DNA of 64,000 nucleotides from Phytophthora sp. 'mugwort' (taxonomy: Eukaryota; Oomycota; Peronosporomycetes; Peronosporales; Peronosporaceae). The notes beneath the pieces are model-generated. The model was not told where the DNA came from. It did no database searches and saw nothing but the letters and a program-made list of their open reading frames with translations. The position numbers and the translations under genes are program-made. The stretch is from the NCBI GenBank assembly GCA_033558025.1, contig JAUCEF010000003.1, positions 1,886,001 through 1,950,000 of the forward strand, written 5' to 3'. Shown in pieces: positions 29,271 through 53,637 of the stretch; position 1 is the stretch's first letter; every line of letters starts with the position of its first letter.

Positions 29271-31158
29271 TGGCGCTGAATGGCGACTCCAAAGTTTTGT
29301 GCATCATCTCGCAGGTGATTTTCCAAAAGGAAAAAAAAAACAATTAAATGCATTAGTTCAGCTTTTGAAATATGTGCAAGTGTCTGTTACTTTTAAATAA
29401 ACTCGCGATACCAAAATCGCTGACTGTTCAACATGATAAAGTTCGCAGGCACAACGGCTAGAACCAGATTCAGCAGCCCTTAAGCCAGAACTTGCGATGG
29501 GAAAAGCTTTCATGACAGCGAAGCTGAGGAGCGAAACGCTTGTAAAATGGCGGATACAGCTGAACATGTGACGCATTTCCGTTCTGTATCAATCCAGCGT
29601 CGTCAAACGGTCATTTCCTCCGGAGTCAGCCAGAATGCAAGCTCTATTGAGCAAATCCCAAGGTGTGGCTCAGCGCGCGAGTAGCCGGCGTGACCTGCGC
29701 CCAGCCGGTCGCTCTTGTCCTGATGAGCACAGCCGCCGACTGCCTTACCACCGGCGCGCTGCGTTGTTCAATCCAGCGAGAGACAGCTGAGCGTGCGCCC
29801 GGCTGTATGTGACCGTTGCAGGTTTGCTTTTTTTTCGTAGTGGCGGCAGTCTGCTGTGACAGCAGTGCTGTCAGATGCGCTCAACTCAATTCAAGTAGTC
29901 AAGTTCCTGCTTGAAGTGGCATATCTCTGCATATCTATGCAATTTCAGGCGCGATGCACCGAGAGGATGTGCGACTCGCTGAAGCAGAGCCAGAAGGCCC
30001 AAGTCTGGTTCGGGTCTTGACTGCTTTTGTGGCTACGAGTCCGGTGCATTATCCGGCAAAGATTCAATCGATGCCTTGGAATTGGTAAGGATTTATCCGG
30101 CGCCTCTCCTGATTTGCCGAACTCTTGTTCTTTTTCGAAGATTATAAGGCCCCTCTACCATCTCGTGTGGACACTGTGCAGGGTGAGCCATTGCAGTGAA
30201 GCTCCATGTAGATCTGCTGGAGAGAAATGGCCCACCACAGTACTGTGTCATGGTATGTATAGCGTCGGCGGGAGCGTTTCAATGACGAGGAACCGCGTCG
30301 ACAAGCGAGCGTGTCTTAGCAACTGTTTTTTGTTTGCTGAGCATCGCCGGCGCCGACAATGGCCAGCGCGTCAATTGCAGTGGCTCGCTCACCCATCAGC
30401 CCAGCTAGCTGAAACCGTCCGCCGACTCCTTTTCCTGCGTTGCGAGCGCAATAATTCAACGTGCGGTACACAGTGCATCTTGCTTCTGCAGAGCGTGCAG
30501 AGCAGCAGAGGCTCCGCCATCTGGGTCCCGCGTCCCACAACTCGATCTCTGCGTCTTCATCGCTCGCTGCCAGCAGCTCGATCCCAGACCGTGCCACTTT
30601 TCACCTTGTCACCGTCACGGCGGTCATGGGCCTCCGTACCTCTGCATACATTTTCGCATACAAATCCCCTGCACTCTGTTCAGCGCTTGGTGTGGAAGAG
30701 ACGCTGTTACGACGTCGAGGACGGAACGGCAGGGGAAGGGCAGTGCATTGAGCCTGACCAATTAATATCCTTCCAAAATTACTGTGCATACAATATTTAC
30801 TTAGCAAGGGCATCTTTTCTTAAGGCCTGTATTCACTAAGCACATCAAAACGCATGCCGCTCCAATTTAAATATTCGACCAACCCTTAGCCCAGTTCTGC
30901 TGTTCAAGAAGCTCAGAGATATCTGTAGGCGCCTCTTCCGCGAGATAGAAGAATACAACACCACACGGCTAAAGGAGCAAAGGCTGAGGCTTTTGTCCGA
31001 GTCATTTGCGGATTTCGTTCAAGCCAGCCAGTGACCATCACTCCGGGCGCTCTCCGCCTACCCGCTGTCCATTTGCACACTTCCTCTCGGCGACAACAGG
31101 GGGAAGTATCGAGCCTAATCAGCGTTTAACCAACACTCTGCACATTATCCACACAGCC
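29271..31158. other. Long interval upstream of the RING-Tubby gene; possible unrecognised small gene
   Basis: The left part holds an A-rich tract (29331-29343) and no recognised gene. A 270-codon open frame at 30027-30839 is compositionally unlike protein and was not accepted. At about 30893-31033 one frame reads LLFKKLRDICRRLFREIEEY and continues as an Arg/Leu/Glu-rich helix, ending in SFADFVQASQ and TGA. A CTTAG acceptor-like site precedes it. This looks like the last exon of a small gene whose earlier exons I could not resolve. Confidence 0.4.
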
Positions 31159-32976
31159 ATGTCGGCCACGTTCGTCCCGACGCCCAGCCTATCCGCCGGC
31201 GAGCCGAGCCCGAGCAGCAGCACAGGCGGCGGCGAGGCGAGGGCCGCTCCCATCTCCGCATCGCGCTTTGCCCAGCGTCGCATGCGTGTCTTCACGGAGC
31301 CCAAGCACAGCAACAAGATGCACCGTACAAGAACGCTAAGCGAGTTGATCCTGTTGTCACCTCGCAGCAGTCCGCGCATCACTCCGCGCCACAAGCGCTT
31401 TGATATGGACATTGAGGTGTCCAGCTTTTTTGCAGAAGGTGAGGGCCTCGTGGATCTTATGGGCAGCAGCAGAAGCCTGCGACGGCTAAGTGAGCGTCAC
31501 TCCACCGGCTTCTCTGCCATCGATGAGGAGGCAGCGGCCTCAACTCGAAACAGGTTCTTCCCCAACAATGAAGTGGGCGACAACCAGCACGAGGAGATGG
31601 AGGTCGACGAGGAGCAGCCAGAGCCTGAGGCCGAGCCCGACGCTGACCCCCAGGAGGCACAGCGCAGTGTTGGTGATGTCGTTGACATGCTTTTCGAGAT
31701 CCATTCGGCGCTCAAGAGCAGACACCTGGGACAGAGAACTGCGGCGTCCGCATTAGCAGCCAGTAACCTCGTCAGCACATTGGCGTACCCTGCTCCAGAG
31801 CCGATCCCAAGAGACGAACAGATGGAGGCGCTGGAGAATACGCGTAAGATGCTTGAGTGCGCCATCTGCCAGGAAGTTTTCACCAACGCGACGGAAGCCA
31901 CGTGTTGTGGCCAGATTTTCTGCAAGGAATGTATTGAGAGGTGGGTGAGCGAGCGAGGATCCTGCCCCATGTGCAGAGAGGCCATCGGCTTCTCGCTCCT
32001 TGCGGCCTCTCGCCACGCTCAGCGAATGGCGAATGAGATGAAGGTCACTTGCCCATACTGCTCGGAGGCCATGAAGAAAGCGAGCTTGGCAGACCACGTG
32101 AGCGCATGCGACCAGGCACCAGTGGAGCCCCCTCCGCCAGCTGATGTTGCACTGCGACAGCTTCTGATCTGCACGGCTAGACTTAACAGCGTGTTCCTTG
32201 CACGGTTCCTCACATCCCCGTCACCCCCACAAGCGCTGATGATGCAGTGCTACATCCGCACCCGCGGTGGGGGCAACTACGAGTTGTACACACAAGATAA
32301 CGACACACTCCTATGCACGGCAGTGCGTCGTCGCCAGTACGACATGTCGGTGAGCTTCATTATTTCGCTTGCCACGAACCTAGACACCACATCCAACCAG
32401 TCAGATGAAGATGGCGCTTACCCGATGAACGCGCCCGTGCCGGTTGCACGACTAGACAAGAATTACATGGGCTCGCAGTACACAATGTTTGATACGACGG
32501 GCGAGCTTCCACTCGAGCTCGGTGCTGTGCAGTACGCTGCCACCTTCGGCAAGTCCCCGCGTCAGATGCGTGTTGCATTGCCGCTTGTTGCGCCTCTGGC
32601 TGAAGTTGACAGCGCTGTCAACGGAGCCCCATCGTGGGCGGTGCAGCCGTGGAGGCCTGAGAATAAAGAAGACACGATCCTCTCCCAGGTGGAGACCCCA
32701 GACACTTCTCGCGCATTGCACCTGATCAACAAGCCGCCCGTATGGATCGAGTCGCTTGAGGCGTACTGCCTTGACTTTGGTGGCCGTGTTGCAGCTGCAT
32801 CAGTAAAGAACTTCCTGCTTTCACACCCGGACGACATGGACAAGACTCTAATGCTGTTCGGCCGCACACAAGACCGCCAGGTATACTCGATGGACTACGC
32901 TCACCCATTTACGCCGGTGCAGGCCTTCGCAATTGCTCTTAGCAGCATGGACTCGCACCTCGTGACCTTCGATTAG
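31159..32976 (+). CDS. RING-type zinc finger plus Tubby C-terminal domain fusion protein
   Basis: The first ATG with good context (31159) gives 605 residues in a single exon; the frame upstream has no ATG. Residues 1-60 are Ser/Pro-rich. Residues 155-170 are acidic, around DEEQPEPEAEPDADPQ. A RING-type finger spans 234-272: CAIC at 234-237, then CCGQIFCKEC, and CPMC at 269-272. Its usual central His is Gln (Q252). A second C-x2-C-x11-H-x3-C unit follows at 298-317. The remainder (about 335-605) matches a Tubby domain, with MMQCYIRTRGGGNYELYTQD, NYMGSQYTMFD, NKPPVW and the closing FGRTQDRQVYSMDYAHPFTP and QAFAIALSSMDSHL. Plant Tubby-like proteins join this domain to an F-box. Here a RING may supply the ubiquitin-ligase link, with Tubby binding phosphoinositides. 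The domain roles are known; the combined function is inferred. Confidence 0.85.
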   Translation: MSATFVPTPSLSAGEPSPSSSTGGGEARAAPISASRFAQRRMRVFTEPKHSNKMHRTRTLSELILLSPRSSPRITPRHKRFDMDIEVSSFFAEGEGLVDLMGSSRSLRRLSERHSTGFSAIDEEAAASTRNRFFPNNEVGDNQHEEMEVDEEQPEPEAEPDADPQEAQRSVGDVVDMLFEIHSALKSRHLGQRTAASALAASNLVSTLAYPAPEPIPRDEQMEALENTRKMLECAICQEVFTNATEATCCGQIFCKECIERWVSERGSCPMCREAIGFSLLAASRHAQRMANEMKVTCPYCSEAMKKASLADHVSACDQAPVEPPPPADVALRQLLICTARLNSVFLARFLTSPSPPQALMMQCYIRTRGGGNYELYTQDNDTLLCTAVRRRQYDMSVSFIISLATNLDTTSNQSDEDGAYPMNAPVPVARLDKNYMGSQYTMFDTTGELPLELGAVQYAATFGKSPRQMRVALPLVAPLAEVDSAVNGAPSWAVQPWRPENKEDTILSQVETPDTSRALHLINKPPVWIESLEAYCLDFGGRVAAASVKNFLLSHPDDMDKTLMLFGRTQDRQVYSMDYAHPFTPVQAFAIALSSMDSHLVTFD

Positions 32977-34602: not shown

Positions 34603-36218
34603 TTAAAGCTTGGTGGGCTCCGGAACGGGAGAGTGCTCAAGCAGGTAGCTGTCGTCCTCGGCCACTTCAATCGCTGTCGATGTAGTCATCAAGGACACAC
34701 CCACGGTCACAACGGGCGGGACAATGAGTGTCACGACGAAGGTGATCATGCTGTTCTGCGAGTAGAGACCCTCGGGCAGAATGAACCAGTTGAAGCCACC
34801 CACAAACTTTCCCTGGGCGATCACGCCACAGATGAAGATGGTTGCCAAGCCAGCAGCGCTGCCAGCCAGTGCACCGGTGCGAGTCGCACGCTTCCAGACA
34901 CCGAGTAGCATGGGGCCAACAGCAGCCGTGCACAACAGGTCGGCGATCAAGTAAAGGGTCAGGATGTCGTACTGCTGGTAGCCGATCGCGATTGCCGGCG
35001 CGTTGAGGAGTACTAAACAAAAATAAAGCATCAAGGAGGAGTTAGCACCTTGAAGCCATGCAGAGTAATGAAGAAGCATTGTGCATACCGCAAATGACAC
35101 GGGCGTGCATCAACGAGAGCTTGGAGAAGCACGTCGTGAGCTCAGCAGCCAGACCCATCTGGATAGAGTCAGACACTCCGCTTGACAGCATGGCAATGAC
35201 AACAACAATGAGCACCTGCCAGCCGCGGCCCATGTCGATCAGAATCGCGAAGAACAGGACTCCGTCTGGGTACGCGAGGTAGGAAACCATACCAGCTATC
35301 GCGAGCGCCACGGTAAACATGGCAATAATTCCGCTGGCGATGAACGCAGCCTTGCGTAGCGCATTGTCGTCATAGGCTGCGTACACACGTTGCCAGAAGC
35401 CCGTGAAGAAGAGGTTGGACGCCGTCACGGCAATGACCAGTGTGACCAGAGTCTCGAAGCCAGCAGTGGTGAAGGCAGCAACGTTCGTCGTCGCCCACGC
35501 ACCGTCCGGAATCGACACGTGGAAGAACATGGCAATGCAGACCACAGCGACCAGGCCCACAACTCCGATGCCCTGCCACACATCCGTTGCCAGACTGGCA
35601 CGAAGTCCACCAATGACGAGGTACAGGTTCGTGAGGAAGGCCACGATTAGGATCGTGACGATCGGGTGCGCGTTCGGCGACATCATCGTCGTGAGCTGTG
35701 CGATGCACGTGTACTCGGACGCGAGGCAGATAAACTGGTAGAACATCGAGATGAAGCCGACGTACAGTTGCATGATATAGCCGAAACGGTTCGAAACCAC
35801 GTCCGTCATGGTGACATTCTCGCCCAGTGCAGAGCGTGTGTACGGTCCAACAAGAGCCAGCACAATCATACCAACGACACCTGACAACGCGTAGCCGATA
35901 ACACCCCAAGAACCAGCATCCACACCAATCTGCGGGTACGAAAAGAGCGTGCCAGCGCCGATACCAGCCGAGAAGAAGCACCACGCCAAACGTAGCGTCG
36001 TCGTCGAGTTTTTCGCACTGCAGTTAAAATTCCACAAGGCAGAGAGTGTCAGATAAAGGTGGACTTTGTTTGGACTGCAGAACTCGATCGATGTAGACAA
36101 ACCTGACGAAATTTTTGACCGAATTGACTTCCATGCGTCGACTCACGACGATAGCGTAGGCAGCGACGGCAACGAGGGTAGCGGCCATGACCCCGTAGGT
36201 GACTTCGCTCGCAAGCAT
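34603..36218 (-). CDS. SSS-family transporter A with TPP riboswitch leader (putative thiamine importer)
   Basis: Three exons, 36218-36103, 36017-35089 and 35012-34603, joined at GT-AG sites in phase, encode 484 residues. The start at 36218 opens directly into a first membrane helix (GVMAATLVAVAAYAIVV). About a dozen further hydrophobic segments follow, with the sodium:solute symporter layout (TC 2.A.21), including the conserved stretch around ALVGPYTRSALGENVTMTDV and a C-terminal acidic tail. Homology alone gives only a generic sodium symporter of the proline/urea type. The leader holds a TPP aptamer (36387-36484), so control by thiamine status and a role in uptake of thiamine or a thiamine precursor are inferred. 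A paralogue with the same exons lies at 57410-58998. SSS-type transporters under TPP riboswitches are known from marine algae. Confidence 0.88.
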
Positions 36219-36313
36219 CTTGAAAAGGATCTTGAGCTTCAGGTAAACGCTAAGGAGGCAAACAATTTAACACACTTCTTGAACTTTCTCCCATAAATGA
36301 GCTTTTTCCTTAC
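36219..36313 (-). other. Probable 5' leader intron of transporter A
   Basis: On the minus strand the leader reads CGTCAG then GTAAGG (donor at 36313), and TTTTCAAG lies immediately before the ATG at 36218. An alternative acceptor (CCTTAG) lies inside. The intron would sit between the aptamer and the start codon. The paralogue has a comparable leader intron. Confidence 0.6.
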
Positions 36314-36386
36314 CTGACGGAATCTAGTGACGGTAGGAGCAGGGGCAGAAGACACGGAGACACATGCATCGTCAACAACAAGAAAG

Positions 36387-36484
36387 ATCAGCAGTCCCTC
36401 CGCCGGTATGAACCGGATCAGGTTCTAAGGGTCTCATCTCAGCCGGCACAACGCATGGTTGGCAGTTCGGCACCCCTCGCTGAT
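36387..36484 (-). promoter_or_regulatory. TPP riboswitch aptamer, transporter A
   Basis: The minus strand holds the full conserved TPP aptamer order. P1 is ATCAGC paired with GCTGAT. Then come GAGGGGTGCC (P2 side), a P3 hairpin (GC-CAAC/GTTG-t-GC), the pyrimidine-sensing CTGAGA, ACCC closing P2, GAACCTGATC, and the P5 hairpin CCGGTTCATACCGG followed by CGGAGGGA. These are the near-invariant bases of the class that binds thiamine pyrophosphate. It ends 168 nt upstream of the start codon, in the sense orientation of transporter A. Eukaryotic examples act by changing splicing, which fits the leader intron downstream. Alternative readings are very unlikely given the second copy with compensatory changes. 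Confidence 0.95.
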
Positions 36485-36560
36485 TGAATGTCAGTGCATC
36501 ACAACCCCACAAGAAGAAACCGGAGAACGAGGAATACTGAGAGAAGATAAAAGTTGTTAA

Positions 36561-36565
36561 GTACC
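36561..36565 (-). promoter_or_regulatory. Donor-like motif upstream of riboswitch A
   Basis: The minus strand reads CCGGTACTTAAC about 77 nt upstream of the aptamer. The same place in the paralogue reads TTCGGTATTTAG. The shared CGGTAYTTA resembles a weak splice donor that could define a leader intron containing the aptamer. Confidence 0.35.
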
Positions 36566-38631: not shown

Positions 38632-38882
38632 TGTCACGCACTTGGCGGTGAGACTTGACTTGTAGTCAGACGAAGGCGTGTATTGGTTTAGATTGGAAAT
38701 TAAAAAAAAAGAGACAAAGCTAAAAAAGGCAAGGCTAGTCCTGTGCTGCCTTGAACTTGCACTTGAGAATGAACTTGAACTTGAGCATAAGCTTGAACTT
38801 GAGATTGCACTGGAACTTGAACTGGACGATTGACACGAGGATTGGCAGTCGGTTGGAAGTGATTCAGGTTGTATCTCTTACA
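38632..38882 (-). repeat. 3' LTR of gypsy-1
   Basis: 251 bp, bounded by TG and CA. It matches 44303-44512 through shared blocks such as CTTGGCGGTGAGAC, GGCAAGGCTAGTCCTGTGCT and GATTCAGGTTGTATCTCTTA. It is about 41 bp longer because a run of TTGAACTTGA-like units near 38753-38825 is expanded. Confidence 0.88.
38753..38825 (+). repeat. Minisatellite expansion within the LTR
   Basis: Repeated CTTGAACTTGA-type units occur here. Only two or three units remain at the matching place in the other LTR (about 44425-44455), so the array changed after or during insertion. Confidence 0.65.
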
Positions 38883-39240
38883 GTCCCTCCTTCGAAGCGC
38901 GTTTACGCGTGGAGTGGGTCAGCGGCGTGGTTCGAATTGGTGGTGCGCCAGACTGATGCTGCCCCCGTCGTGGTGGCACATCAGTAGCCGATAGCGCGGA
39001 TGAAATCGACGCAGCCGGCTTGGGTATGAGCGCGGTACGGTAGTTGTCACTGCAGCCGATGTCAAAAACTCTGCGATTAGACCATCCGTCTGTATAAGTC
39101 CGCTCTTGGCCTCCCACGTCTGGTTCGTCACGACCGTACCTCTGGACTTTGTATTGCTGGATGTATCGACGCTTCACTGTCCGACAACGGCGCGGATATG
39201 GTTCCCTTTGAAGCCATCGCGAGGGATAAGACGATGCACG

Positions 39241-40660
39241 CTAATTAAGTCGCTTGTGGTTCGTATCTTCGCGCAGGTACGAGACGTGGAACTTGTCGTG
39301 TAGTCGAACGCCAGGCGGCAACGAGATGTGGTACGTGTCCGATGTTACGCGTTCCAGGGCATGGTAGGGACCGATGAATCGGGCAGCTAGCTTGCATCTG
39401 CCTTTTGTGCCGATATGGGCGAGATCGAGGTGCAGCGTGTCGAGTAGCACCAGATCGCCGAGCGTGAACTGTAGGTCGGGCCGATTGTGGTCGAAGAAAC
39501 GCTTCATACTGGCCTAAGCCGACTCGAGGTTGGCAATGCTGTAGTACGTGCTGCTGATGTTCTGCAAATTTGAACGCGTCAGCAGGCATCTGTGACGTTG
39601 CAGCAGGGTAAAGTCATCAAATGCGCGCGGCGTGTATCCCAGGTCGGCAGCAAAAGGGGCCATGGTAATGCTGGAGTGTAGCCAAAAATTGTAAGCAAAC
39701 TCGGCCATGGCAGCAGATCGTCCCAGTCGCCCTGTGCTGGGGCCATGAAGGCGCGCAAGTAGTCGTTGATAAACCAATAGCTGCGCTCGTTCTGGCCGTC
39801 TTCGATGGCTTGAATGCGGCACTGGCATGCATCTATGAGCCTTGGCTTGAGACCAGCGCATACCAGAATCGATCGCTGACGATAGACTCGGGAAACCAGT
39901 GAAGATAAACATATTCGCACAGGAATAGTCTGCGATATCCTTGGCACTGAGACCCTTCATCGTTGAAATAAATTGCGCACACTTGTTCCGTCGATCGAGT
40001 ATAACCAAAATCGTGTCGTACTTCGATCTGGTGAGCGGCGGACATGACGGACATGAAGTCCATCAAAATGTTGTCCAGCGCTTGTGGAGAATCTCGAGTG
40101 GGTGTAGCAACCCTGCCGGCTTGTGCTGCGCTGCTTTCATGCGCTGACACAGCTCACTGGATTGAGCCTATTTGGCGATAGACTTGCCCATGTTGATCCA
40201 GAAAAACTTCGTTTGCGCGGTCGCGAGCATCTTCGCAGAGCCATTATGACCGCACGCGGCCGTGTCATGGCACTCAAAGAATACAGCATTGCGCAGGTCG
40301 GTATCATTCGGCACGCAGAGACGTCGCGGAGAAATGGCGTCCTCCTGGAAGAAAAACAAGTCGTCCTCGTCAAAAAAGCGGAGTCTTCGCTCGCAAAGTT
40401 GGATGAACGTCGATTGGAACTGCAGTTGGAGCGGGCGGAGAAGCGAGATCCTAGATGATAGGACCAAATACTGCGCCTTCCGTGTACAAATGTTTGCACT
40501 GGTCGTGGCTTGATGGACACTGGTGCGTGTAGTGGAGGGACGCGTCATCACAGAGATGAGCGCTTGCTGGTCGCTTAGCTGGGAAAACAGTGCACCGAGC
40601 AGAACGTGGGCGGGCTGGTCAGAGTCCACTAACTGGGGGCTCCTGGAGATGGCATCAGCC
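39241..40660 (-). pseudogene. Gypsy-1 integrase region
   Basis: The 40168-40662 frame holds the H-H-C-C zinc-binding start of integrase (ECHDTAACGHNGSAKMLATA). The core follows in mixed frames at 39514-40150. The C-terminal part at 39241-39507 reads FTLGDLVLLDTLHLDLAHIG and GPYHALERVTSDTYHISLPP, the usual region before the chromodomain position. Frame changes separate the blocks. It is the last pol domain in coding direction, next to the 3' LTR. Confidence 0.7.
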
Positions 40661-42000
40661 ACGATGTTCGCCAGGGATCCAGCGAAAGAGCAGCTGGAAG
40701 AAACTCAAGTAATTTAGCTAACGCGCGAGACGCTGTGAGCACGTCGTTTGCTAGAGGACCGACTCCAAAGTACGGCGATCGGTTTCGACGTAGAATGGTG
40801 TGTCGATCAAGTAAACCTTTCACGTGCGCTTCGCATGTAGCGCTGCAAGTAATTCCTTTTCTCGTGCCGGGTACATCCATTCTGCTGTGGTAAGCTTTCG
40901 ACTGCCGTTGGCGATGACTTGTTCATGTCCATTTGCGGCGAGTTGGAAGAGGTAATCTCCCACGGCGTAGTTCCATGCGTCTATCTTGACGTGGAATGGT
41001 CGAGTCGTATCAGGATGCGATAGAACAGAAGGAGACGACAGGCGCTTCTTAAGCTCTGCGAAATACCGCTGTTGCGCTTCGTCGAGCACGATCCTTTCGT
41101 ACTTTGTCTTGCTCTGGGTAGCCGACGTGAGTCGAGCCGACAGCGTAGCAAACTCAGGGCAGTACTCTAACACGTAAACGCATGTCCCGATAATGACTGC
41201 AGTTCGCGCTTTGTTCGTGGCGTAGACCGCTCGCGGACGCACTTGATCGTGTCCGGATCCATACGAATGCCATCGCTACCAACGCAGTCGCCGAGGCATG
41301 ACAAAATGTGCAATTCGAGAGATTCACATATAAATGCTGCTTTGCACATCGATTCAGCATGTTGTCGAGCGCCGCGAGATGGTCTGCCACCGAGCCGGTC
41401 GTCGTGAAGACGAACAGGTCGTCGAAGTATGCGCGACAAAATTCGCGCTGGTCTTCAAAGACAGTCTGGATCAACGCAGGCGGACTCGACGGTAAATCCA
41501 TCGGCTTCACGAGATATTCGAACATGCCGTCAGGCGTTGAGAATGCAGTGTATGGAATGTCCTGTTTTCGAAGCCATACTTGGAAAATCCCCGTAGCAAG
41601 TTAATCGCGGAAAAGATGCGACCGTTTGTCATTGCGTCGTAGATGTCTTCTTTGCGCGGAATGGCTGTTGCTGGGACGCGAATGCGGGCGTTGATCGCTC
41701 GGAAATCGTGAATGATACGCCAGCCAACTGCTTTGCGGACGCAGAATGTTGGCGATGAGAATGGCGAATTGGACAGACGGATCGTGTTGTTTGCGAGAAT
41801 TTCTCGTGTCCATTCTCGCGCAGCCTCCTTCACCTCGACACTCAGTGGGAACTATTTGCGAGCAGCGGGTGGTTCGTCCGCGAGCTCAATCTCAGCTTCG
41901 ATGTCAATCGTACGTGTTGGCGGAGTAGCTGGCAGCTCAGCACGAAAAACCGTGTTCTTGTATTTCTGACCAGCTTCTCCACTAGATGCCCGTGGAATGC
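40629..42000 (-). pseudogene. Gypsy-1 reverse transcriptase and RNase H region
   Basis: The frame 41507-41833 carries the first RT boxes (IHDFRAINARIRVPATAIPR). The frame 41154-41525 has the catalytic box in YFDDLFVFT followed by LDNMLNRCAKQHLYVNLSNC. The frame 40820-41242 holds the connection and RNase H beginning (FHVKIDAWNYAVGDYLFQLA). The three frames overlap with shifts and lack a continuous reading. Order and strand agree with the LTR structure. Confidence 0.75.
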
Positions 42001-42742
42001 ATCCCACTCAGTCTATCGCTGGGCTTTTTCGAATGCGATGTCGACGAAAAAACAAATTCTCCCTCTGTCAACCTCAGCTTCTTCAGCTCACGCGAGGATA
42101 TTACCTGTGCTGGACCCACCTTAGACGCGTGGACGTGCTTGCTATGGTACATGTACAGCATGATGTCGTCATGGGAGATGTAACGGGGTTACACAAAGGC
42201 GGCACGAAGTGTAGCCATGCTACGTGTCACCTTGCAGCAAGTGGAATTGGTACCACTTGGATTAACAGGATTTCAGTACGTGGCCACAGGGCCACTAGAT
42301 ATGCATTTGACTAGGCTTACCTATGGTAGATAGTTAGAGTCATGCATTTACACCACAGGCGGCTTTGCCGCAGATAAGCAAACAAATAACAGTTCAATTT
42401 TAGTATCAAAGAGAGTATCATCCTAGTTTTAGGAATACTGACTCTTCGAGTCTCTAGTGGTATAACTAAAGGGATCTAAGCCTCTGTGGAGACCTTAGGG
42501 GTTAGGCGAACCACAGCTAAGACCCGGGGAGTCATACGCCTTCCTCTGACGCACTACACGCTACGCAGCCTCGCAGCAGGAGATCCCCGAAGGAGACGCC
42601 TTCGTCGCAGCTTTCTGGCTCGCCCCACCTGCCACTCTGGCTGGCCCCTCGCGTATTCACTGGTGGAAATGCGTGGCGATTGTCGACCCGCGATCTCGAA
42701 TGACATGATTTCGCCAGTCGATCTCCGATTCCCGTCACGCAA

Positions 42743-43084
42743 TCAGGGAATGCCTAACGGAAGGTGTTTCCCCTCGGGACCTGATACAACAAAGGCTTCC
42801 GTCTTATAAACCGGAATGCCGTGCAGCTGTACCTCGACCATAGTGACTCGTCGGGGAACTAGCACATTCTGGTTATTGCCGATGGTAAGCTTGAGCAGCT
42901 TCTCGCACTGGTCTACCTTTAGACCGAGGCGCTTGACGACACGAGGGTCGATGGCGTTGAAGGATACCCCGCTTTCGATGAAGGCGTTGACCATCTTGTC
43001 ACCGATTACTACCACATGTGAGAGATAGCAGTATACGTTGTCTTTTCGACGGCGCACCGCACCGTCGTCGCCATGGTAGTGCAA
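42743..43084 (-). pseudogene. Gypsy-1 retropepsin-like protease
   Basis: A 113-codon frame has a retropepsin layout: VNAFIESGVSFNAIDPRVVK, then hydrophobic strands around LTIGNNQNVLVPRRVTMVEV. The catalytic D-S/T-G triad reads E-S-G here, so the acid is Glu rather than Asp. It lies between gag and RT, as expected. Confidence 0.6.
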
Positions 43085-44302
43085 CGCGCGTCGCGTCAGA
43101 AAGGTTTGGCTGGCGGAGCGTGTACTGCAACCAAGCTTCGTTTATTCCGGCTCAATAGGTGGCCGACCTACCGAGCCGCACCGTTTTCTGGCTGCTCGGA
43201 CGTGCAGCAACGACTGCTTCCGCAGCCGTCTTGCGATGGCAGACGTCAGTCGAGTGGCTCGAGAGCTTACAATGAGAGCACCAAACCTTAGCTGTGTCTG
43301 GTCGGCGTGACGACCCTTCCAGCTTATGTGAAGCAGTGGTTGCACTCCTTACGGCAGGCTTGGAAGCTTCCGTTTTGCACGCCGAAGAGCCTGAGCGAGA
43401 ATCTTCGAATCGCTTGTCCCACTCACTAGCATCCTGAAGAGTTTCGGGTACGTTTTGCGAAACGAAGGTGCTCGTTTCGTGGTGCAGCTTTTGCTGGTAA
43501 AGCCAGCGTTTTACACACTTGGGACCCTCTTCATCGAGTTGTAAAGCAGGTGTAAGAATCTGGTCGTGTTATCTTGTATTGGGACCCTTGCCACCGCAGC
43601 TCGTACAGCTTGGACATGACCTTCTGCTGGAAGTCGCTGTCGCGGAACGCTGGCGGATTTTTACTTTGAACAACAACCACACTACTGGTTGATCTTGACC
43701 AAGTGAAAGCTAGAAATCACGGAACCACGTCTGGGTGCTTGGACCCAAGTTCGCAAAAAATGGTGTCCACGAAGTCAGATGAGTCTCTGTTCATTTCTCG
43801 CGATATTAAGCATAGTACTGCTCAATACTATATATATATCCATAGCCCCAGATCCTCCGATGCCTTGTCATTGAAAGTCGGCGGGTCGCCTTTTCTCTTA
43901 TGTGGCATGCGCGCTTGAACTTGCGTTGTCAGCACTTGACGTTGGAACTCCGCCTGCTGACCATGTGCGTGTTAACTGTAGTTGATGCTGAAATTGTTGT
44001 TGCTGTTTCTGCGTCTGAATCATGAGCAGCCGCATCTGAGCCAGCATGGCGTCGGTTGATGAAGCATGGTGATGTTGAGATGGCGATCCTTGTCCTTGTT
44101 GAAATGGGTCCGCGTCGCTCGTTTAACAGAGCGCGCATCGGCTTGCTGGGCTTCGGCGGCTGGTGACTGGTACGATGGAGCATCGTCTTTATCGCGTGTG
44201 CGGCGCGCACGTAGCGGAAGGCGCGGACGAGGGTTCGTACTGTCTTGATGTTCCATTGAACAAGGATCCTCGCGTGCCTATGGGCTTCAATAGTTTTATA
44301 AC
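43085..44302 (-). pseudogene. Gypsy-1 gag region
   Basis: Minus-strand frames between the 5' LTR and the protease (for example 43142-43345 and 43929-44339) have basic and Gln/Thr-rich composition but many breaks. I recognise no capsid or zinc knuckle with confidence. The gag assignment rests on position. Confidence 0.45.
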
Positions 44303-44512
44303 TGTACGCACTTGGCGGTGAGACCTGACTTGTAGCCAAGCGAAGGCGTGTAATGGCTTAGAAGGAAAATCAAAATGAGAAATGCTAAAAACAAAAGAAG
44401 GCAAGGCTAGTCCTGTGCTGCCCTGAACATGCACCTCAGAATGAACTTGAGCTTGACGGTTGACAAGAGGATTGGCAGTCGGCTGGCAATGATTCAGGTT
44501 GTATCTCTTACA
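44303..44512 (-). repeat. 5' LTR of gypsy-1
   Basis: 210 bp, bounded by TG and CA, matching 38632-38882. It is followed by the right GGGAG duplication. Confidence 0.88.
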
Positions 44513-44517
44513 GGGAG
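44513..44517. repeat. Target-site duplication of gypsy-1, right copy
   Basis: GGGAG, identical to 38627-38631. Confidence 0.85.
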
Positions 44518-45096
44518 GATTTGACATTGCGATCAGTGGGTGAGGAAGTCGAGAGCGGTGGCTGTCAGTGTGGGGTGTCCTTGTAGTGCAGTGCGCTGAA
44601 AACAGTCAACACTGGAGCTACCACTGGTCTGGACTATTCTGGTGTGGGATATGATTGGATAACATCGCTGGCATCGAATGCTCGAGTTGGATGAGGAAAC
44701 AAACGTTTTGTGCGGGCACGTAGTGCTGACTGCTTTAGTCATAGTGATCTGACTCTGTGTTTGTGGTCGCAGACCGTTTGATTTGGTGGAACTATGCGGT
44801 TTTGTATTTGTCAGCATGTACTTATGTTTTCCACTATTAATTAGTGGTGTGGTTTTGAATCCAAACTTTTGATACGCTGTCAAGCCAATGTCGCTCGACG
44901 AGCTGTTGAGCCTAACCAAAACAAAACATTCTACAGTAGTGGACGAGCTCATGAACAAGATGCGAGATGGGTGATGCCCAGCGTGAGCTAGAATCTGACG
45001 AATCGAACGATGGAGACGGAAAGATGTGTATAGTGTTGACCAGGATGTAGGAAGGATTGCCACGAACAAACTCAAGGAATGGCTCTAGCGGATGGC
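44518..45096. other. Interval between the two gypsy elements
   Basis: A 180-codon minus-strand open frame (44533-45075) is Ser/Thr-rich with no recognised domain. It may be chance or an old repeat, and no gene is called. Confidence 0.4.
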
Positions 45097-45474
45097 TGTG
45101 GATGGGTCGTGAAAGCTGATAACGAAGACGGCAAGGTCCGAAAGGAATAGAGCGAAGACGTGAAAGAATTATCAAAGTCGCCGTGTACGCGGCGTGTGGG
45201 CGCGCTGCTCCGCAAGGAGACGATGAAGGAAGACGACGCTACAAGGAAGGGCGTCTGCAGGAATCTTGCCGCCTGACAGCATCAGGCAGCCTTGCATATC
45301 CGAAGTGGAGCAGGTCCAGAGCCTGTAAAGGCATTGGCTTCTTAACGACGAATCTACAAAAGACAAGGAGCTCCAGGGAGGCCAAGGGGGCCTTTAGCAC
45401 GTAGGTAGCGAGCAGGTAAGTCCTCTAACCTCTCAGAGCTCAATCCGTTTTCTCAAGAAAAAGTGGTCTTACCA
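45097..45474 (+). repeat. 5' LTR of gypsy-2
   Basis: Starts TGTGGATGGG and ends near CTTACCA. It aligns throughout with 50557-50928. Ends are set by the limit of similarity and the TG...CA rule. Confidence 0.75.
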
Positions 45475-45768
45475 TAAAGTTAACTTTGGCCTTACAAGGT
45501 CGAAGGTTTTGCCAGTGATCACGCTTCAAGCAAGGAACCAGATCGACGCGCAAATCTTTGAGTGGGAGGTTGGAACAAGATGCGTGTGGACGCTGACGGG
45601 GACGTGGAGATGTCTGTCCCGCAGCCAGTCTACGAGTTCGTAAGCGCCCCCGAGTTGACTGCCTGGGATCAGGAGTCGCTCGTGGACTGAAGGCGTGGAC
45701 GTGAGCGCTATGCTGAGAAGATTCAACAGAAGTGCAGGACATAGAACGAGCCGTTCGACGCTACTGTA

Positions 45769-46665
45769 ATGCGAGTTCGCGACACAGTGAAGCCCAAAAT
45801 CCTCAAGCACCTATATCGCTATGTGTTACGCAAAGCTGTGGAGGACATTACTGACGCCAACATCGTGCAGAGGTCCGCGAGCAGACGAACACGTTGCAGA
45901 ATGGCCACATCCGAGATGTGCAGTCGTTTCCCAAGGCAAACCTGCGGATGGACATGTTGAAGAAGGACATTGACGCCAGAGTACTCAAGTACTTCGTAGG
46001 TTTTGACAACAAGTGAGAAGAAGTCCGACCCACGTGAAAGTTGCTGGATCAGCAAGGGTCCCCAATTAGCACAACAGTGTTCAACAGCGACGGACGAGCA
46101 GAAGGCTGAAGCACGAAGGCGTCTTGACGAGGCGCGTACACGAAAAGTGAAGATGGCACATGTTGAAAAATCACCTGGACGACGTCGAATGATGACGAAC
46201 GAGGTCCTTGAGATCCCGTTTCGACCGGTCGGTGGTTCTGACTGCTGTCTCCTGCCTGATGAATATTTGCGGGAGCTGCAGGCAGTAGATACTAGCGTGC
46301 AGCCGAACAAACTGGAACAGCATGTTGCAGTGGAGCTTGCTGGTGGAAAGAATGAACACTGTCACAACGAGTGCACGGTGGACCTGCTGCTCGAAACAAA
46401 GGCCGGGCCAGTTTATGTACGACGTGCGAAGTGCCTAGTACTACCAGGAAACGAAGAAAAGTTCTTCTGAGGTGACGATTTGTTGAAGTCACTTGGTATT
46501 GACGTTGATGGTATAATGGTGCAACTAGCGGTTGGTTCAGTTGAGCAGGACGATGGCGATGACCTGGAAGAAGAACCTGGAGTCGACCACTGTGAGGCCA
46601 ACTCAGTTGCAAGGAGTCTGGAATTGCTGATACAGGACGTAAAAAATAAACGACTTTCCGGCTAG
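45769..46665 (+). pseudogene. Gypsy-2 gag/protease region
   Basis: The frame 46003-46470 is 155 codons. Its second half (VDTSVQPNKLEQHVAVELAG) has the strand-rich look of the segment upstream of or within the protease. The frame 45769-45960 precedes it. A TGA at 46468-46470 is followed by an in-phase continuation in another frame to 46665. I recognise no catalytic triad. Assignment is by position in the element. Confidence 0.45.
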
Positions 46666-47608
46666 TCTGATACCGTCAGTGCGCACCACCGTGTTGGGCT
46701 ACGGTGATGTATGGAGAGCTAGGCTTGGAGCTGATGACCAGGCACGAGTGAGACCGTACAGTGTGAAGCGAAGCCAGATGCCACTCCGTTCAGATGCAAG
46801 CCGTGGCGCTACCCGCCGTTGCAGACTGATTTTCTTCGCGGGCATGTTGCTGAACTGCAGGAGATTGGACTGCTGGGTCTCAACAATGCAAGCTGTTGGG
46901 CGTGTGTGTGGTATTGCAGATCCGGATAAGATGGAATTTGACCGGCAGCCGGAATATCCACGTCGCCAACGGCAGCCATAACAGCGCCGGACCATGCGAC
47001 ACACCAGGCCTGTATATGGTACGGATCCTGGATCCGTTCCGTGGGGTAAGGTCTAAGTACTAGATCCGATCAGTTTAGTGCACACCGGGTTGAAGATCCG
47101 TAGCTAAAGGGAGGTAGAGTGGAGACGGGTGGCCAGGAAGAGGTCAGAGATGGGATCCTGGGTTATAAGTAGTCTCTAGGATAGGTTTTGGGATGGGATC
47201 CGAAGGTAGATAGGCTAAGGTATAAATCAGAACCGAATTTGCACTGGAAGACAGACTTGACTATAGTACAGAGGATTTCTATTGGCCCCATCCATAGACT
47301 AAGGCTAAACTTTGGCGATCTTCCTGCACACGTGGCAGCCCCTGGATAGGTTTGCCAGGTCGCGCTCGCCCTTGGCTTCTCAACCCCCCCTCAAGGTCCT
47401 GCTATTGGAGGCGGCAAGCATCGTAAAGGAACAAGGACAACTACGATAAGGAGCAAGGACACCTCAAGAAGAAACAACTCCGGATCTCGTATTTCTATTA
47501 CGGATCCACAAGGCCTACGCAAAGAGCTCAAGACCAAACCAACACCAGATCTCGTGCGCAGGAATACCCGCGCAGATCCACCCCATCAAAGTCCTCACAA
47601 GGACGTTC

Positions 47609-48656
47609 ATGGCCACCAAGTGCGCATCTCGTGTCAACGAGAGAGCAATACCAGCCCGCGGACGGGTACACAAGGTGAACCACTCAGCAACAACACGGCC
47701 GTCGGAGCCCCCCCCCTGTAGTCGCTGTCTGGGCGCAGTGCGTGTGAGTTGGGATCCTACTGAAATTCAGTGGATCCACTTCACCACATTTGCAGCAGTC
47801 CCAGCTCGCAAAGCCGGTCTCAAGGACGAGTTCAGGCTCACGACAGACTATCGCACGGTGAACCAGATGACTGTGTCGATTGCTGCTGCAGTACCGAATC
47901 TTTCGGTGGTGACTAGCAGAGTTCGTGGTACCAAGGCAATGACCAAGTTCAAGGCTTTTGGCAGCTGCCGTTAGCCGAGGACTCGCAAGAGGTCTTCAGT
48001 ATCCAGACTGATGGTGGAGTTTATACGCCAACACAGGTTCCGCAAGGTGCTGTTGACTCCGCGATGCACTTCCAATCGACGATGCAGGAGGGTTTTGATG
48101 ACATGATTGAACCACAAATTTATTTGTCTACGTGGATGATGTAGTGCTGTACGCATTGTCGCATGATGAATTTCACGTTGTACTGGATACGTTTTTCCAG
48201 CGCCTAACACGAAAGAAGCTTGAAGTTAAACGTCATGAAGAGTGCGCAGTATGCTCAGGCTGTCACGTGGTGCGCAAGACTGTGGATAGGACTGGCGTGA
48301 TGCATGATCCAGCCCGCGTGGACGCGTCGCAGGCTCTGCAATTGTCAATGAACGCCGGCGAGCTGCAGCACTTCATGTATGCTGCCAACTGGCTCCGAGA
48401 TTCGATCGTCGACTATGGTCAAGCGGTGGCTCCCTTTCAAGAGAAGTTTGATGAAATGATGACTGGGCACAACCGTCATGCTGTGAGCGTTGCCGTGACT
48501 TGGACGTATGCTGAGGAGCAGGCCTACAAGGACGTTTTGGACCGAATCGCATTGTCTGCGATGCTGTCTTTCCTTACTGACGAAGCGATTGTCTGTTTGA
48601 GCACGGATGCAAGTGCCCGAGGTTTGGCCTTGATTGTTTCTCAAGTGCGTGATTGA
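47609..48656 (+). pseudogene. Gypsy-2 reverse transcriptase region
   Basis: The frame 47609-47974 contains FRLTTDYRTVNQMTVSIAAA, the fingers box of RT. The catalytic box FVYVDDVVLYA straddles a frame change near 48122-48155. The frame 48132-48656 continues through the thumb/connection (LEVKRHEECAVCSGCHVVRK) to an RNase H start (CLSTDASARGLALIVSQ). A gap and stops lie between 47974 and 48132. Confidence 0.7.
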
Positions 48657-48815
48657 GACTGAGGTACCTATGCATGAGCAGCGGCATGAACTTCTCATTT
48701 GCTAGGGAGGATCAGCTGAAATATAAAACTTAAATAGAGTTTGATCCTGGCGGTTTTTTTACGTTTGTATGAATAGAAAAATTGGTCCGCAATTGAGAGG
48801 GAGTCTTACCCCATT

Positions 48816-50183
48816 GTGCTAGCATGCACGGAGCTGGAATATCGGCTGCGAAGGGCTCAAGGCTTTCTCATATTCTGTGATCACGCCAATCTCATACAAG
48901 TATGTTGCCCTAGGAAGGAAGTGAAGCAGCACGTCCGTGGCAAGTTGCAGCGGTGGACGATGAAGCTGACGGGCTACAACTATGACATCCAGCACATTGA
49001 CGGCGTCAACAATCACTGGGTTGACATGGTGTCACGTTGGCTGTGTCGACCAAAAGAGCCTGCTTTCATTCGAGTCAAAGCTGTTCGAACTCGTCCCAGC
49101 AGAGACAGTTCCAATTTACTGCGTCCCCTGCAGGAGGATGGTTTCGTTTGGCCGTCTGTGGACGAGTTGCAACGCGTACAGCAAGGACATGTGAGCAAAT
49201 TAACTGAAGAGTATGAAGAGGTGGATGGTTTGATTTCCGTTGAGGGTAGGATGTGGATCCCGAAGCAAGCGCGTGAGCTCCTTACACGGACTTTGATTGT
49301 TGCCCACTGCGGGATCCAAGCCCACCGGGGGGAGCAAGTGATGACCGCCAACCTCCAAGACAAGTATGCAATTGCACGCCCACACCACCATGTGAAGAAC
49401 TTCGTGCTTGTTTTGAAGCACCTGAAGGGCGGCAAACTCATTTAGCGACCATGGACCGAACCCAGACCGGTGGCAGAACGCAATGAGATTTTGCATATGG
49501 CCAACTTGTCGATGGACGACTCGAATGGCCCTACCAAGTACGTGGCTCGTCCTAAAAGACGAGCTCACGCACTTTTGCGAGCTCATCCTGTGTGACTCTC
49601 CTATAAGTACGGTGGCTGCCACAGCCATGCTAGATTGGTACAAGCGGTTCAGCAGTGGACGTCAGATCAGGGTACCCATTTCAATAATGAGCTCGTAGCG
49701 GAGTTGAGCCAGCGTCTGAAAGACGTTCAAATATTTGGGCCAGCCTACACCCGGTGGGTTAACAGCACTGACGAGCGGTTGAGCCGCGACATATTACGTC
49801 TTGTTCGTATGCTGCTACTGGAGATGCAGCTCGACACGAAAACCTGGGAGTATCTCCTGCCAGGGGTGCAGACAAATCTCATTCACACGCCAATTCACAC
49901 GCTCAGCGGGGTGGAACCGACAGATTTGTTCGCGGGTCTGTCATGCCTACGGCCGCTGGACATGCTACTACTACCGGATGCAGCTAAGCCATTGCAACGC
50001 ATTGACCTGGCTATTGCGCATGAAGAGCTTGAGCGACTCAGAGCCAGCCTCGCTGAGATGCATATGGAGGTGACGGACAAGAAGGAACGCCGCCGACTGT
50101 ACCAGCAGAGTGAGAACAGGGCAAGCTGTGTAACTTCTCGGTCGGCGACTACGTGTTGTGGTCGCGTGTGGACTTACGGCTGA
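48816..50183 (+). pseudogene. Gypsy-2 RNase H end and integrase
   Basis: The frame 48816-49445 has the RNase H tail (DHANLIQVCCPRKEV; YNYDIQHIDGVNNHWVDMVS). The integrase N-terminal H-H-C-C zone follows, with HCGIQAHRGEQVMTANLQDK. The frame 49635-50183 covers integrase core pieces (QWTSDQGTHFNNELVAELSQ and YTRWVNSTDERLSRDILRLV), including a catalytic-region Asp and Glu. A frame break lies at about 49445-49640. Confidence 0.7.
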
Positions 50184-50556
50184 GAGGGAGGAAAGCTACC
50201 TGTGCGCTGGGTGGGGACCTTTCGTGTTACGGATGCCAGCCCGTACTCGTTCATGGTGCAGCACCTCCTCACCATGGAAAGGAGCATGAAGTGCATGGCT
50301 CGAGGTTGAAATTCCTTGAAGCTTCATCTCTCAACGTAACTGGGAGCTCGTTGAGCATGTGGCCAACCAAAGTATTCCGCTTGGTGTCGACGCGATTGTT
50401 TTGCACCGCATTAACCCCGACACGGCCAATAAAGAATTGCTAGACTGGACTGGTTTAGAAACCATCGAGAACGTGGGAACTACTTGAGGTGGTGCTTGTT
50501 GGTCGTCATCAGGCTTGTCGGACTCTCTGATCCACGGTATCAGCTTTGAAGGGCAG

Positions 50557-50928
50557 TGTGGCGATGGGTCGTAAAGCTGATAACGAAGACGACAAGGTCC
50601 GAAAGGAATAGAGCGAAGACGTGAAAGAAGTGATCAAATCGCCGTGTACGCGGCGGTGGGCGCGCCGCGCCAATGAGACGGTGAAGAAGACAACGCTGCA
50701 AGGAAGGGCGCATGCAGGAATCTAGCTGCCTAAGAGCATCAGGCAGTTGCACATCTGAAGTGGAGCAGGTCCAGGGCCTGTAAAATGCATTGGCTTTTTA
50801 ACGACGTATTCACAAAGGACAAGGAGCTCCAGGGAGGCCAAGGGGGGCGTTACACGTAGGTAGCGAGCAGGTAAGTCCTCAACCTCTCAGAACTCAATCT
50901 GCTTTCTCAAGAACGAGTGGCCTTACCA
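50557..50928 (+). repeat. 3' LTR of gypsy-2
   Basis: About 372 bp, matching 45097-45474 with scattered substitutions and small gaps. Confidence 0.75.
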
Positions 50929-51996
50929 TAATGACGCAGCTTTTTTGTTAGATCAGATGCAACGGAGATGTCTCCATGAGCGATGCAGGGTTTTCGAACA
51001 ATGGAAGAAGCATATAGAGAGGAGTGAGGACACAAGCGAGGCCACAAAAACAGCAGTGAAAATCTTCCGGCCCTTCGTCGACCTCGTCATCGTTAAAAAC
51101 GCTGTTTAGTAATATTCATGTATTTTTGATTTCAAACCGCGAGAGGATTGATTGTCTGTATCCGTAGACAGCGCGCTGCGTATTATGACTTCACAATAAA
51201 ACATATTTTTCAAGGGAGAACCTTGGAGAGGCATCAAATGTTATATGTCGATGTGGTTGTCAGTTCTGCATTTCTCGATCTTGCACTTCTGCTTTGTCGG
51301 CGAATTTCTTGATTTCTTTTAGCAAACGATTTTTTGTTTGTGCTCTACAGACTGATATAGCATCAACTTGAGAAGGAGGTATTTTTGTCGCGCCAAGTTG
51401 GTTAACGCATCCGTCTCCAACATTGCGGCCAGATTTTTGTAAGAAATCGCTTCCCAATATTTGTCAATTGTTGCAGTAAAGAGATTGGTGCCTTCTTGGC
51501 CAAGAGTTCATCGATGTCCAGCTGAGTTGCGGATACATTCGAGTTCCCTTGCCCCCAAAACGCTCAAGCGCCAGCTTCTTCGAGTGTTGCAAAAGTATTA
51601 TAGAGAATGGAAAGCCTCGAGATTATGGCCCATTGGTTCCCAAGTTTACCAGCTCCGACCGAACCCCTTCAAGTGACATTGCCAAGCGCTGCTCGTCCAG
51701 ATCGGGAAGACCTTAGTCGCTCCGTCCAGCTGCTCACGATAGTGCGCTCGTTCGACTGCGAACACGTCGGGCTTCTCTTTACCCAAGTCGAATGCCTCGA
51801 GAAATACGACATCCCGCATCAACGGTGCGTCATCGATTCAAATCGATCTCTGCGCCGCTCTTGAAGCTCTCGCGTCAATGGTGAATAATAGCATTTGTGT
51901 AGATCAGTGACCAGCTTTCGATCTCCGAATTGGTTTATTTTTGTCTTTGTTCTCCATTTCTTATCAGTCCCAAACCCCAGTACTGTTAACTTTGCT
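50929..51996. other. Intergenic, with an unrecognised minus-strand fragment
   Basis: Short open frames on the minus strand (51260-51457) and plus strand (51461-51676, 51607-51864) show sense-like stretches but no family I can name. They may be a decayed gene. The rest is non-coding, up to the ankyrin gene start. Confidence 0.4.
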
Positions 51997-53637
51997 ATGG
52001 GAGGTAAAGTGTCACTACTTCAAGCGGCGCTGAAAGGGAACGTAGCCAATGTCAAGGTCGCTCTGGAAAGGGGTCAAGCGGTGGACGCGAAAGACGAAAA
52101 TGGGTGGACGCCGCTGTTGTTCGCCGCCCGTGAAGGTCACGAGGGCGTCGTCCGTTTACTGCTTCACTACGATGCAACGCCAGATTTGGCCGGTAAGACA
52201 GGGTGGACGCCTTTAATGTGGGCTGCCGACGCTGGCCATGAGAACGTCGTTCAGATTCTGCTTGGTCGAAAAGCAAAGGTAAACCTCAAAAATGCAGTCG
52301 GATCGACGGCGTTGAACCTCGCCGCTCAAAAAGGGTATACGAACGTCGTATTCTTGCTGTTGTATCAAGGCGCAGACGTGAATCTGGCGGATGAAGACGG
52401 TTGGACGCCCCTCATGAACGCTGCTCGAGTAGGGTACGTGGATGTGGTGGATGTCCTGCTCGACCACAAAGCGGATGTCGAGGCTGTGACCACCCAGGGC
52501 AAAACGGCTCTGCAGATGGCGAACACAGCAGGAAAGACGGATATTGTCAAAAAGCTGCTAGAATATCAGAGCGAAATGAACCAAAAGGAAAAACTGCAGC
52601 TTGAAGCCGATGAACGGTCTCACAGTGAGAATGAAGAGGATGAGATGTCAATTGTCGATGCTGATAAAGAGCACGATTGCGTTGCTGATGAGCCTGACGA
52701 GAGCGAGACACATATGCGTGAAAATGACGGAGAGAACAAGGAAGGGGAAGAACTACTGGATGAAATCCTGTCGTTGTTTGACGCCGTGTTGCAAGACGAC
52801 GAGAATGCTGTGGAAGCTGCTCTTGACCGAGACGAGGACATTGATGGCCGAAACGACAGCGGGAATTCCCCCCTTTTACTTGCTGTAGACTGTGGGTATG
52901 GAGATGTAGCTCGTATTTTGATCGCTCGTGGAGTTCATGTTGATGCTCAAAATGCAGTTGGACAAACACCTCTGTGTCTTGCATCAAAGAGCGGCCAGTT
53001 AGATATGGCAGAATTGTTGCTTGATTCGGACGCCTCTATTGACCTTGCGGATGAAAATCAGTGGGCTCCGTTGCATCACGCTTCCAGTAATGGGCACACA
53101 GCGATTATCCGTCTGCTTATTGTCAATGGGGCCAACGCTGACGCTACAAATAAAATGGGTCATACATCTCTGCATATTGCAGCGACTGAAGGTCTGTTAG
53201 AGATCGTCCGATTGCTGCTACAAGGCGGAGCTATGGTTGATGTTGCCGATGTGGCCCATTGGACACCTCTGCGAATAGCAGTTGAGTCTGGTGAGGAGAA
53301 TATAGCACGATTGCTCCTTGAGTGGCAAGCAAATGTCAACACGACAGACACAATAGGATTAACGCCGCTGCACGTTGCCGTAAGGGATGGAGACGTCGTT
53401 CTTGCTCGACTACTACTCGAGAACAGAGCAGATATCAACTTACCAGACGGACACGGGAAAACAGCATTGATGCACGCAGCAGCTGAAGGCCATTTGAATA
53501 TTGTTCAACTTCTGCTTGAAGCCAATGCAGATACGAAAAGAATGGATCTTGACGATATGACAGCCCTCGAACATGCAGTGAAGAAGGGATACACTGCTGT
53601 CGCGATTCGTCTTGGAAGTTATCAAAATGTAGATTAG
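51997..53637 (+). CDS. Ankyrin-repeat protein, two blocks with acidic linker
   Basis: The first ATG of the frame (51997) gives 546 residues, intact and without introns. About fifteen ankyrin units are visible. Six lie in residues 5-198 (for example NGWTPLLFAAREGHEGVVRL) and nine in about 263-546 (for example IGLTPLHVAVRDGDVVLARL). They are separated by a Glu/Asp-rich linker, residues 199-262, which is likely disordered. The N-terminus MGGKVS fits the N-myristoylation pattern (Gly2, Ser6), so membrane attachment is possible. No enzymatic domain is present. Role: a scaffold binding a partner protein; the partner is unknown. A decayed relative follows directly downstream at about 53780-54800, suggesting a tandem family. 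Confidence 0.82.
   Translation: MGGKVSLLQAALKGNVANVKVALERGQAVDAKDENGWTPLLFAAREGHEGVVRLLLHYDATPDLAGKTGWTPLMWAADAGHENVVQILLGRKAKVNLKNAVGSTALNLAAQKGYTNVVFLLLYQGADVNLADEDGWTPLMNAARVGYVDVVDVLLDHKADVEAVTTQGKTALQMANTAGKTDIVKKLLEYQSEMNQKEKLQLEADERSHSENEEDEMSIVDADKEHDCVADEPDESETHMRENDGENKEGEELLDEILSLFDAVLQDDENAVEAALDRDEDIDGRNDSGNSPLLLAVDCGYGDVARILIARGVHVDAQNAVGQTPLCLASKSGQLDMAELLLDSDASIDLADENQWAPLHHASSNGHTAIIRLLIVNGANADATNKMGHTSLHIAATEGLLEIVRLLLQGGAMVDVADVAHWTPLRIAVESGEENIARLLLEWQANVNTTDTIGLTPLHVAVRDGDVVLARLLLENRADINLPDGHGKTALMHAAAEGHLNIVQLLLEANADTKRMDLDDMTALEHAVKKGYTAVAIRLGSYQNVD

Follow-up and report, generated by a model that had tools for sequence, protein, structure and literature searches.

Thiamine pyrophosphate (TPP) riboswitches have been reported in 15 of 17 oomycete genomes, and a sodium-symporter group carrying the element was termed unique to oomycetes and widespread across their diverse species (Mukherjee et al., 2018, PMC5882874). 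Riboswitches have also been described in Phytophthora species (McRose et al., 2014, PMC4260697). SSSP transporters with TPP riboswitches occur in algae and bacteria (PMC4260697; for diatoms, PMC9544697), knock-out of the diatom SSSP abolishes thiamine uptake (PMC9544697), and in Candida the SSS protein Dur31, whose gene carries a TPP riboswitch, transports thiamin (Donovan et al., 2018, PMC5997356). Here we analyzed a 64-kb stretch of the Phytophthora sp. 'mugwort' genome (hereafter the window; C3:1886001-1950000 of 86.3 Mb in 154 contigs), which contains two copies of a TPP aptamer, A and B, each in the 5' leader of a gene for an SSS-family transporter. We consider it likely that both are eukaryotic TPP riboswitches that turn off a thiamine importer in the presence of TPP through splicing of the leader. 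The result is genuine but largely anticipated, as such a pairing of riboswitch and transporter has already been published for oomycetes; a preliminary description of copy A overstated its novelty in the light of the 2018 report on oomycete sodium symporters and the 2014 report on Phytophthora.

Copy A (36377-36487, minus strand; positions are those of the window) is a genuine TPP riboswitch sequence. In a search of the window against 4227 Rfam families, it matched the full 105-position model of RF00059 with 72.4 bits (E 2.5e-12), far past chance and well above the gathering score of 54.3 bits, which bears out the RNA class named in the preliminary description. The conserved blocks that had been read on the minus strand within a slightly shorter span (36387-36484) are all present and in order: GAGGGGTGCC, CTGAGA, ACCC, GAACCTGATC, CCGG-TTCATA-CCGG, and GGAGGGA. 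The two CCGG stems of the hairpin stand as described, but the loop consists of the six bases TTCATA and not of TCAT alone. The P1 helix, formed by ATCAGCG (36478-36484) and TGCTGAT (36387-36393), contains the six Watson-Crick pairs previously counted and is also closed by one further G-U pair. The distance of 168 nt from 36387, the last base of the shorter span, to the start codon at 36218 is likewise correct. Copy B (59133-59255, minus strand) is a second full match to RF00059 (63.9 bits, E 3.2e-10); the two copies are seemingly intact and lie 23 kb apart, and no further TPP match was detected in the window at a permissive threshold. The CUGAGA pyrimidine-binding and GCG pyrophosphate-binding motifs (roles after PMC9544697) were found in both. 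In loop L5, both copies have UCAU in place of the UAAU of the RF00059 consensus, which is a preference and not a defining feature. This is no oddity, because the last 60 bases of 59 aptamers that scored over the cut-off in bacterial relatives contain TCAT in 25 cases, TAAT in 8, and neither in 26; the loop sequence therefore does not split members from non-members.

Comparison of the two leaders showed that conservation is concentrated in the aptamer core, which is identical in 12/12 columns on its 5' side and in 54/60 from CTGAGA to P1. Outside the aptamer, a branch-plus-acceptor block (17/21), a T-rich block (20/25), and a first-donor block (15/24) are retained. The remaining stretches have drifted: P3 (12/33), the middle of the candidate leader intron U1 (22/55), the sequence before the second candidate intron U2 (17/51), U2 itself (27/64), and the 31 bases directly upstream of the ATG (5/31). 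The contrast between the conserved core and the drifted U1 middle and pre-U2 stretch favors a real function of the aptamer. Together with the E values obtained in two paralogous leaders, it also refutes at the sequence level the notion of a chance or spurious aptamer-like sequence, whose probability we regard as negligible. The T-rich block ends in GACGATG and lies just 3' of P1, at 36363-36387 (minus strand) in A and at the same place in B.

A genome-wide Rfam search returned copies A and B and no other TPP aptamer among the 49 of 3216 candidates that were scored; more weak copies may exist, because so few candidates were scored and a decayed copy went unlisted there. This decayed copy, C, belongs to a third transporter locus (C6:2964500-2972000), with the aptamer at 860-950 and gene pieces at 3208-4167 of that interval. 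Its aptamer is degraded, scoring 30.6 bits at the permissive threshold, and no RF00059 match over the cut-off was obtained at the locus. It lies approximately 2.3 kb upstream of the transporter pieces, which are interrupted by stops. That gene and aptamer fold were lost together hints at linked functions, although it is no proof of them. Minus-strand open frames occupy the interval between the copy C aptamer and its transporter pieces, and copy C also keeps a stretch resembling the T-rich GACGATG block.

The predicted transporter genes downstream of the aptamers are both on the minus strand. Gene A (34603-36218) encodes 484 aa in exons 36218-36103, 36017-35089, and 35012-34603, and gene B (57410-58998) encodes 482 aa in exons 58998-58883, 58814-57886, and 57813-57410. 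Their introns are similarly placed, and the proteins share 84% identity across 480 aligned columns. The divergence between the genes (dN 0.10, dS 1.12; NG86) suggests that both are under purifying selection. Protein A matched the Pfam SSF family (PF00474) with 28.8 bits against a cut-off of 22.8, in agreement with the SSS assignment made earlier, and the close ortholog P0003 scored 44 with the NCBIfam superfamily model TIGR00813, below its cut-off of 184. Among solved structures, the closest in sequence were SGLT1, the choline transporter CHT1, and DUR3, all of them weak matches (best E 2.5e-12). Elsewhere in the genome there is one other strong SSF match, at C6:2138468, and the 8 kb surrounding it contain no Rfam match over the cut-off.

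The best named homologs, among the best 120 of 161 and the best 120 of 181 matches, came from Phytophthora, Peronospora, Bremia, and Plasmopara (up to 93%), followed by Pythium, Globisporangium, and Lagenidium, which is consistent with the oomycete origin proposed from the sequence. Beneath the oomycete and unnamed rows are proteins with approximately 31-39% identity, and the named ones are all bacterial. In a tree of 52 rows, including 36 retained after thinning of the 80 bacterial loci, gene B branches outside a group of gene A and its P. fragariaefolia and P. capsici relatives, so the duplication that produced A and B is probably older than these species. The 11 oomycete-labelled rows, which include the unnamed metagenome proteins P0033 and P0034, form a single long branch (1.72) beside bacterial rows; the residue composition of many oomycete rows departs from the tree model. 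Transfer of the gene together with its riboswitch from bacteria was considered, but with this single long branch the tree names neither a donor nor a direction.

The bacterial relatives of the transporter provide an indication of its substrate. From a species-genome collection we took the best 80 of 474 confirmed loci and searched all 80 against Rfam. An RF00059 match over the gathering score was detected at or just before the gene match in 60 of them (18/19, 16/20, 15/20, 10/20, and 1/1 by batch). In all 60 there is a riboswitch match on the gene strand whose end falls anywhere from approximately 105 nt upstream of the tblastn match to a few bases inside it. The 60 loci do not represent independent events, because many come from close kin (Halomonadaceae), but they include both Actinomycetota and Pseudomonadota. 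The recurrence of the same riboswitch before these relatives supports a thiamine-linked substrate for the oomycete proteins. One Comamonadaceae locus (L033) has two TPP riboswitches, at 2848-2957 and 5301-5396, one on each side of the transporter match. A 29-nt string of copy A spanning P4-P5 (36396-36424, minus strand) occurs exactly in 10 of the 59 bacterial aptamers (for example, in L026, L037, and L096), and the longest string that copy B has in common with these aptamers is 15 nt. As the comparison covered aptamers that precede transporter relatives, the 29-nt identity may serve only as a lead.

The thiamine metabolism of the genome points to the vitamin itself as the cargo. Exon-by-exon searches gave no matches to NMT1 or ThiC. 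The search for Thi4 returned four short stretches, each spanning 32-48 of the 235 positions; two scored slightly above the cut-off (29.1 and 27.3 vs 26.2). We read the stretches as nucleotide-binding motifs shared with other proteins. For thiamine phosphate synthase, one fragment was obtained (24.9, under the cut-off of 27). Thiamine pyrophosphokinase (TPK) is clearly present (2.0e-33). Since the searches ran exon by exon, absence of the thiamine-synthesis genes is likely but not proved, and from its gene content the organism seems unable to make its own thiamine. These results are in agreement with the thiamine auxotrophy of Phytophthora, in which HMP and HET gave no rescue in three strains (PMC10499793). 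With NMT1 and ThiC unmatched, Thi4 and thiamine phosphate synthase represented by fragments only, and TPK present, the transporter more probably carries thiamine than one of its precursors. The importer of thiamine or a precursor suggested in the preliminary description can thus be narrowed: the link to thiamine is supported by the bacterial riboswitches, and of the two cargoes thiamine is favored. A generic sodium symporter thereby gains a likely substrate in a genome that apparently cannot synthesize it.

Both leaders share a series of candidate splice sites around the aptamer. The 5' part contains a GTAYTT donor-like site (36564 in A, 59315 in B), a branch-like ACTGAC (36495-36490 in A), and CAATCAG, whose AG falls within the 5' strand of P1 (36481-36480 in A, giving an acceptor at 36480; 59248 in B). 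In the 3' part, the aptamer and the T-rich GACGATG stretch are followed by a GTAAG donor (36313 and 59067) located 73-77 nt past P1 and by an acceptor before the main ATG (36250 and 59011). These sites define two predicted introns per leader, all on the minus strand. In A they are U1 (36480-36564, 85 nt; CCG/GTACTT to CAATCAG/CG) and U2 (36250-36313, 64 nt; CAG/GTAAGG to CCTTAG), and in B they are U1 (59248-59315, 68 nt; TCG/GTATTT to TACTGACATCCAATCAG/CG) and U2 (59011-59067, 57 nt; CAA/GTAAGC to TTCCAG). Scanning from 36640 in A (interval 36640-36200) and 59380 in B down to the main ATG revealed six upstream ATGs in A (36499, 36456, 36437, 36369, 36365, and 36294, minus strand) and five in B, every one of them 3' of the first donor and 5' of the last acceptor. 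A splice that joined these two outermost sites would remove all the upstream ATGs detected. If just the two candidate introns were removed, four upstream ATGs would be left in A and three in B, and the aptamer would be exonic.

From the RNA class and the gene family, we infer that the aptamers bind TPP, that TPP turns expression off, and that the proteins transport thiamine; more weakly, we infer that the choice between on and off is made by splicing. At low TPP, the upstream donor (36564 or 59315) would be joined to the acceptor near the main ATG (36250 or 59011), all upstream ATGs would be spliced out, and the importer would be made. At high TPP, the ligand would bind the aptamer in the pre-mRNA, and splicing would keep the aptamer-bearing stretch rich in upstream ATGs in the leader, so that little transporter would be produced.

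The exonic position of the aptamer after removal of the two introns is also what would be expected if it bound TPP in the mature leader and the bound form blocked scanning or initiation directly, with no choice of splice site. A precedent is offered by the Type IV fungal TPP riboswitches (13 instances in single-exon genes without leader splice sites), which were proposed to work otherwise, perhaps at translation (PMC5882874). The matching candidate donors and acceptors of both leaders, together with the conserved branch-and-acceptor block, argue against such direct control, and we consider it improbable.

Gene models of orthologs, which are themselves predictions by others, were used to assess the proposed junctions. 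In an unbiased test of the P. fragariae model (P0016), the top of 326 donor-acceptor pairs on copy A uses the acceptor at 36480, and on copy B the acceptor at 59248 with a donor at 59308 ranks second of 209 pairs (63 vs 64). The P0001 model runs through the aptamer from an ATG within it. In the same test, none of the P0017, P0002, P0011, and P0008 models pointed clearly to a junction at these sites, although P0017 and P0002 had seemed suggestive on inspection; the best P0002 pair on copy A is at 36331-36288 (51 vs 37 unspliced).

Masking of a donor by pairing with the aptamer is the mechanism of N. crassa NMT1. At the present locus, such pairing was not above chance, and we rejected it as evidence. 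The upstream donor of A pairs with the aptamer over 8 bp, which 28% of sites match, and that of B over 9 bp, which 7.5% match. In folds of the whole leaders, enforcing the aptamer made the branch-like stretch more paired in A, with an inconsistent effect in B, and raised the mean unpaired value of the B upstream donor from 0.38 to 0.52. The closing of the P1 acceptor in this fold is no evidence, because it is closed by construction.

Several results weigh against the proposed switch. The leader splice sites are predictions, and the top P0016 pair on copy A takes the donor at 36572, not 36564, with the pair using donor 59315 on copy B ranking sixth (58). The downstream donor of copy A pairs over 7 bp with the aptamer, a value matched by 52% of the 3540 GT[AG] sites in the window and by 24 of 58 CAG/GT[AG] sites, and that of copy B pairs over 4 bp, equalled by all sites. 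With the aptamer fold enforced, the mean unpaired value of the downstream donor rose only slightly in A (0.27 to 0.39) and did not rise in B (0.52 to 0.51). Finally, the TPP aptamers of diatom SSSP and THIC genes proved unresponsive to thiamine (PMC9544697).

The last point raises the prospect that the Phytophthora aptamer is conserved but unresponsive, in front of a thiamine importer whose RNA no longer switches under ordinary conditions. Oomycetes and diatoms are both stramenopiles. In diatoms, 12 of 13 SSSP and 11 of 15 THIC genes carry aptamers, but P. tricornutum showed no thiamine response; an exception is T. pseudonana, in which SSSP fell by one-third (P 0.03) (PMC9544697). However, the diatom aptamers are in the 3' untranslated region (UTR), with no obvious acceptor within them (PMC9544697), whereas those described here are in the 5' leader amid candidate splice sites and upstream ATGs. 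The joint decay of gene and fold in copy C may point the same way. We regard loss of the response as quite improbable and retain splicing-based repression by TPP as the preferred reading.

Of the clues to the mechanism in the sequence, the candidate acceptor in P1 is the most specific. Simple closure of P1 over this site by TPP would be expected to cause skipping and thereby expression in the presence of TPP, which is the wrong sign for an importer, unless the intron were retained. In a further model, the whole aptamer would be an alternative exon bounded by the P1 acceptor and the GTAAG donor, with TPP governing inclusion of this sensor exon packed with upstream ATGs. In green algae, the aptamer acceptor is promoted by TPP, and the same direction here would mend the problem of sign. 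We consider the alternative exon unlikely; if true, it would set these leaders apart both from fungi, where the aptamers are embedded in introns, and from diatoms, where they are in the 3' UTR.

Other features of the window include a 656-aa open frame (31006-32976, plus strand) that encodes a RING zinc finger and, after it, a Tubby domain, an apparently unusual pairing, and a 580-aa open frame composed mostly of ankyrin repeats (51895-53637, plus strand). Dispersed direct repeats at 38636-50852 (69-83 nt, 86-92% alike, spaced by approximately 5.5-5.7 kb) suggest duplicated blocks in that stretch. A tRNA gene is located at 1105-1174 on the minus strand (Rfam, 43.2 bits).

Compared with known systems, the locus fits the oomycete sodium-symporter group of PMC5882874, as it combines the same RNA class with an oomycete SSS-type transporter; the arrangement of an aptamer between two donors with an acceptor in P1 does not appear in the available part of that account. 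The Type I fungal mechanism places the aptamer in an intron of the 5' UTR, with two donors around a short upstream open reading frame and one acceptor before exon 1 (PMC5882874). An upstream donor, upstream open reading frames, and a final acceptor are also present here, but the GTAAG donor follows the aptamer, whereas both Type I donors apparently precede it in that description. The TPP aptamers of green algae and plants have an alternative acceptor AG within P2 (PMC9544697), so a 3' splice site inside the aptamer is not in itself new. The candidate site here is similarly on the 5' side of the aptamer, but its AG is in P1, and the AG of the P2 strand follows four bases later. The fungal DUR31 and NCU01977 (PMC5997356) are likewise SSS-family thiamin transporters, with a riboswitch that acts on splicing; here the aptamer lies before the start codon. 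The algal and bacterial SSSP transporters share the SSS family and the TPP riboswitch with genes A and B; in diatoms, the aptamer is in the 3' UTR (PMC9544697) as opposed to the 5' leader. No experimental test of an oomycete TPP riboswitch was announced in the titles or abstract openings of the open literature searched. The Phytophthora leader offers a direct test of the RNA control of vitamin uptake and a comparison with the diatoms, whose similar aptamers proved silent.
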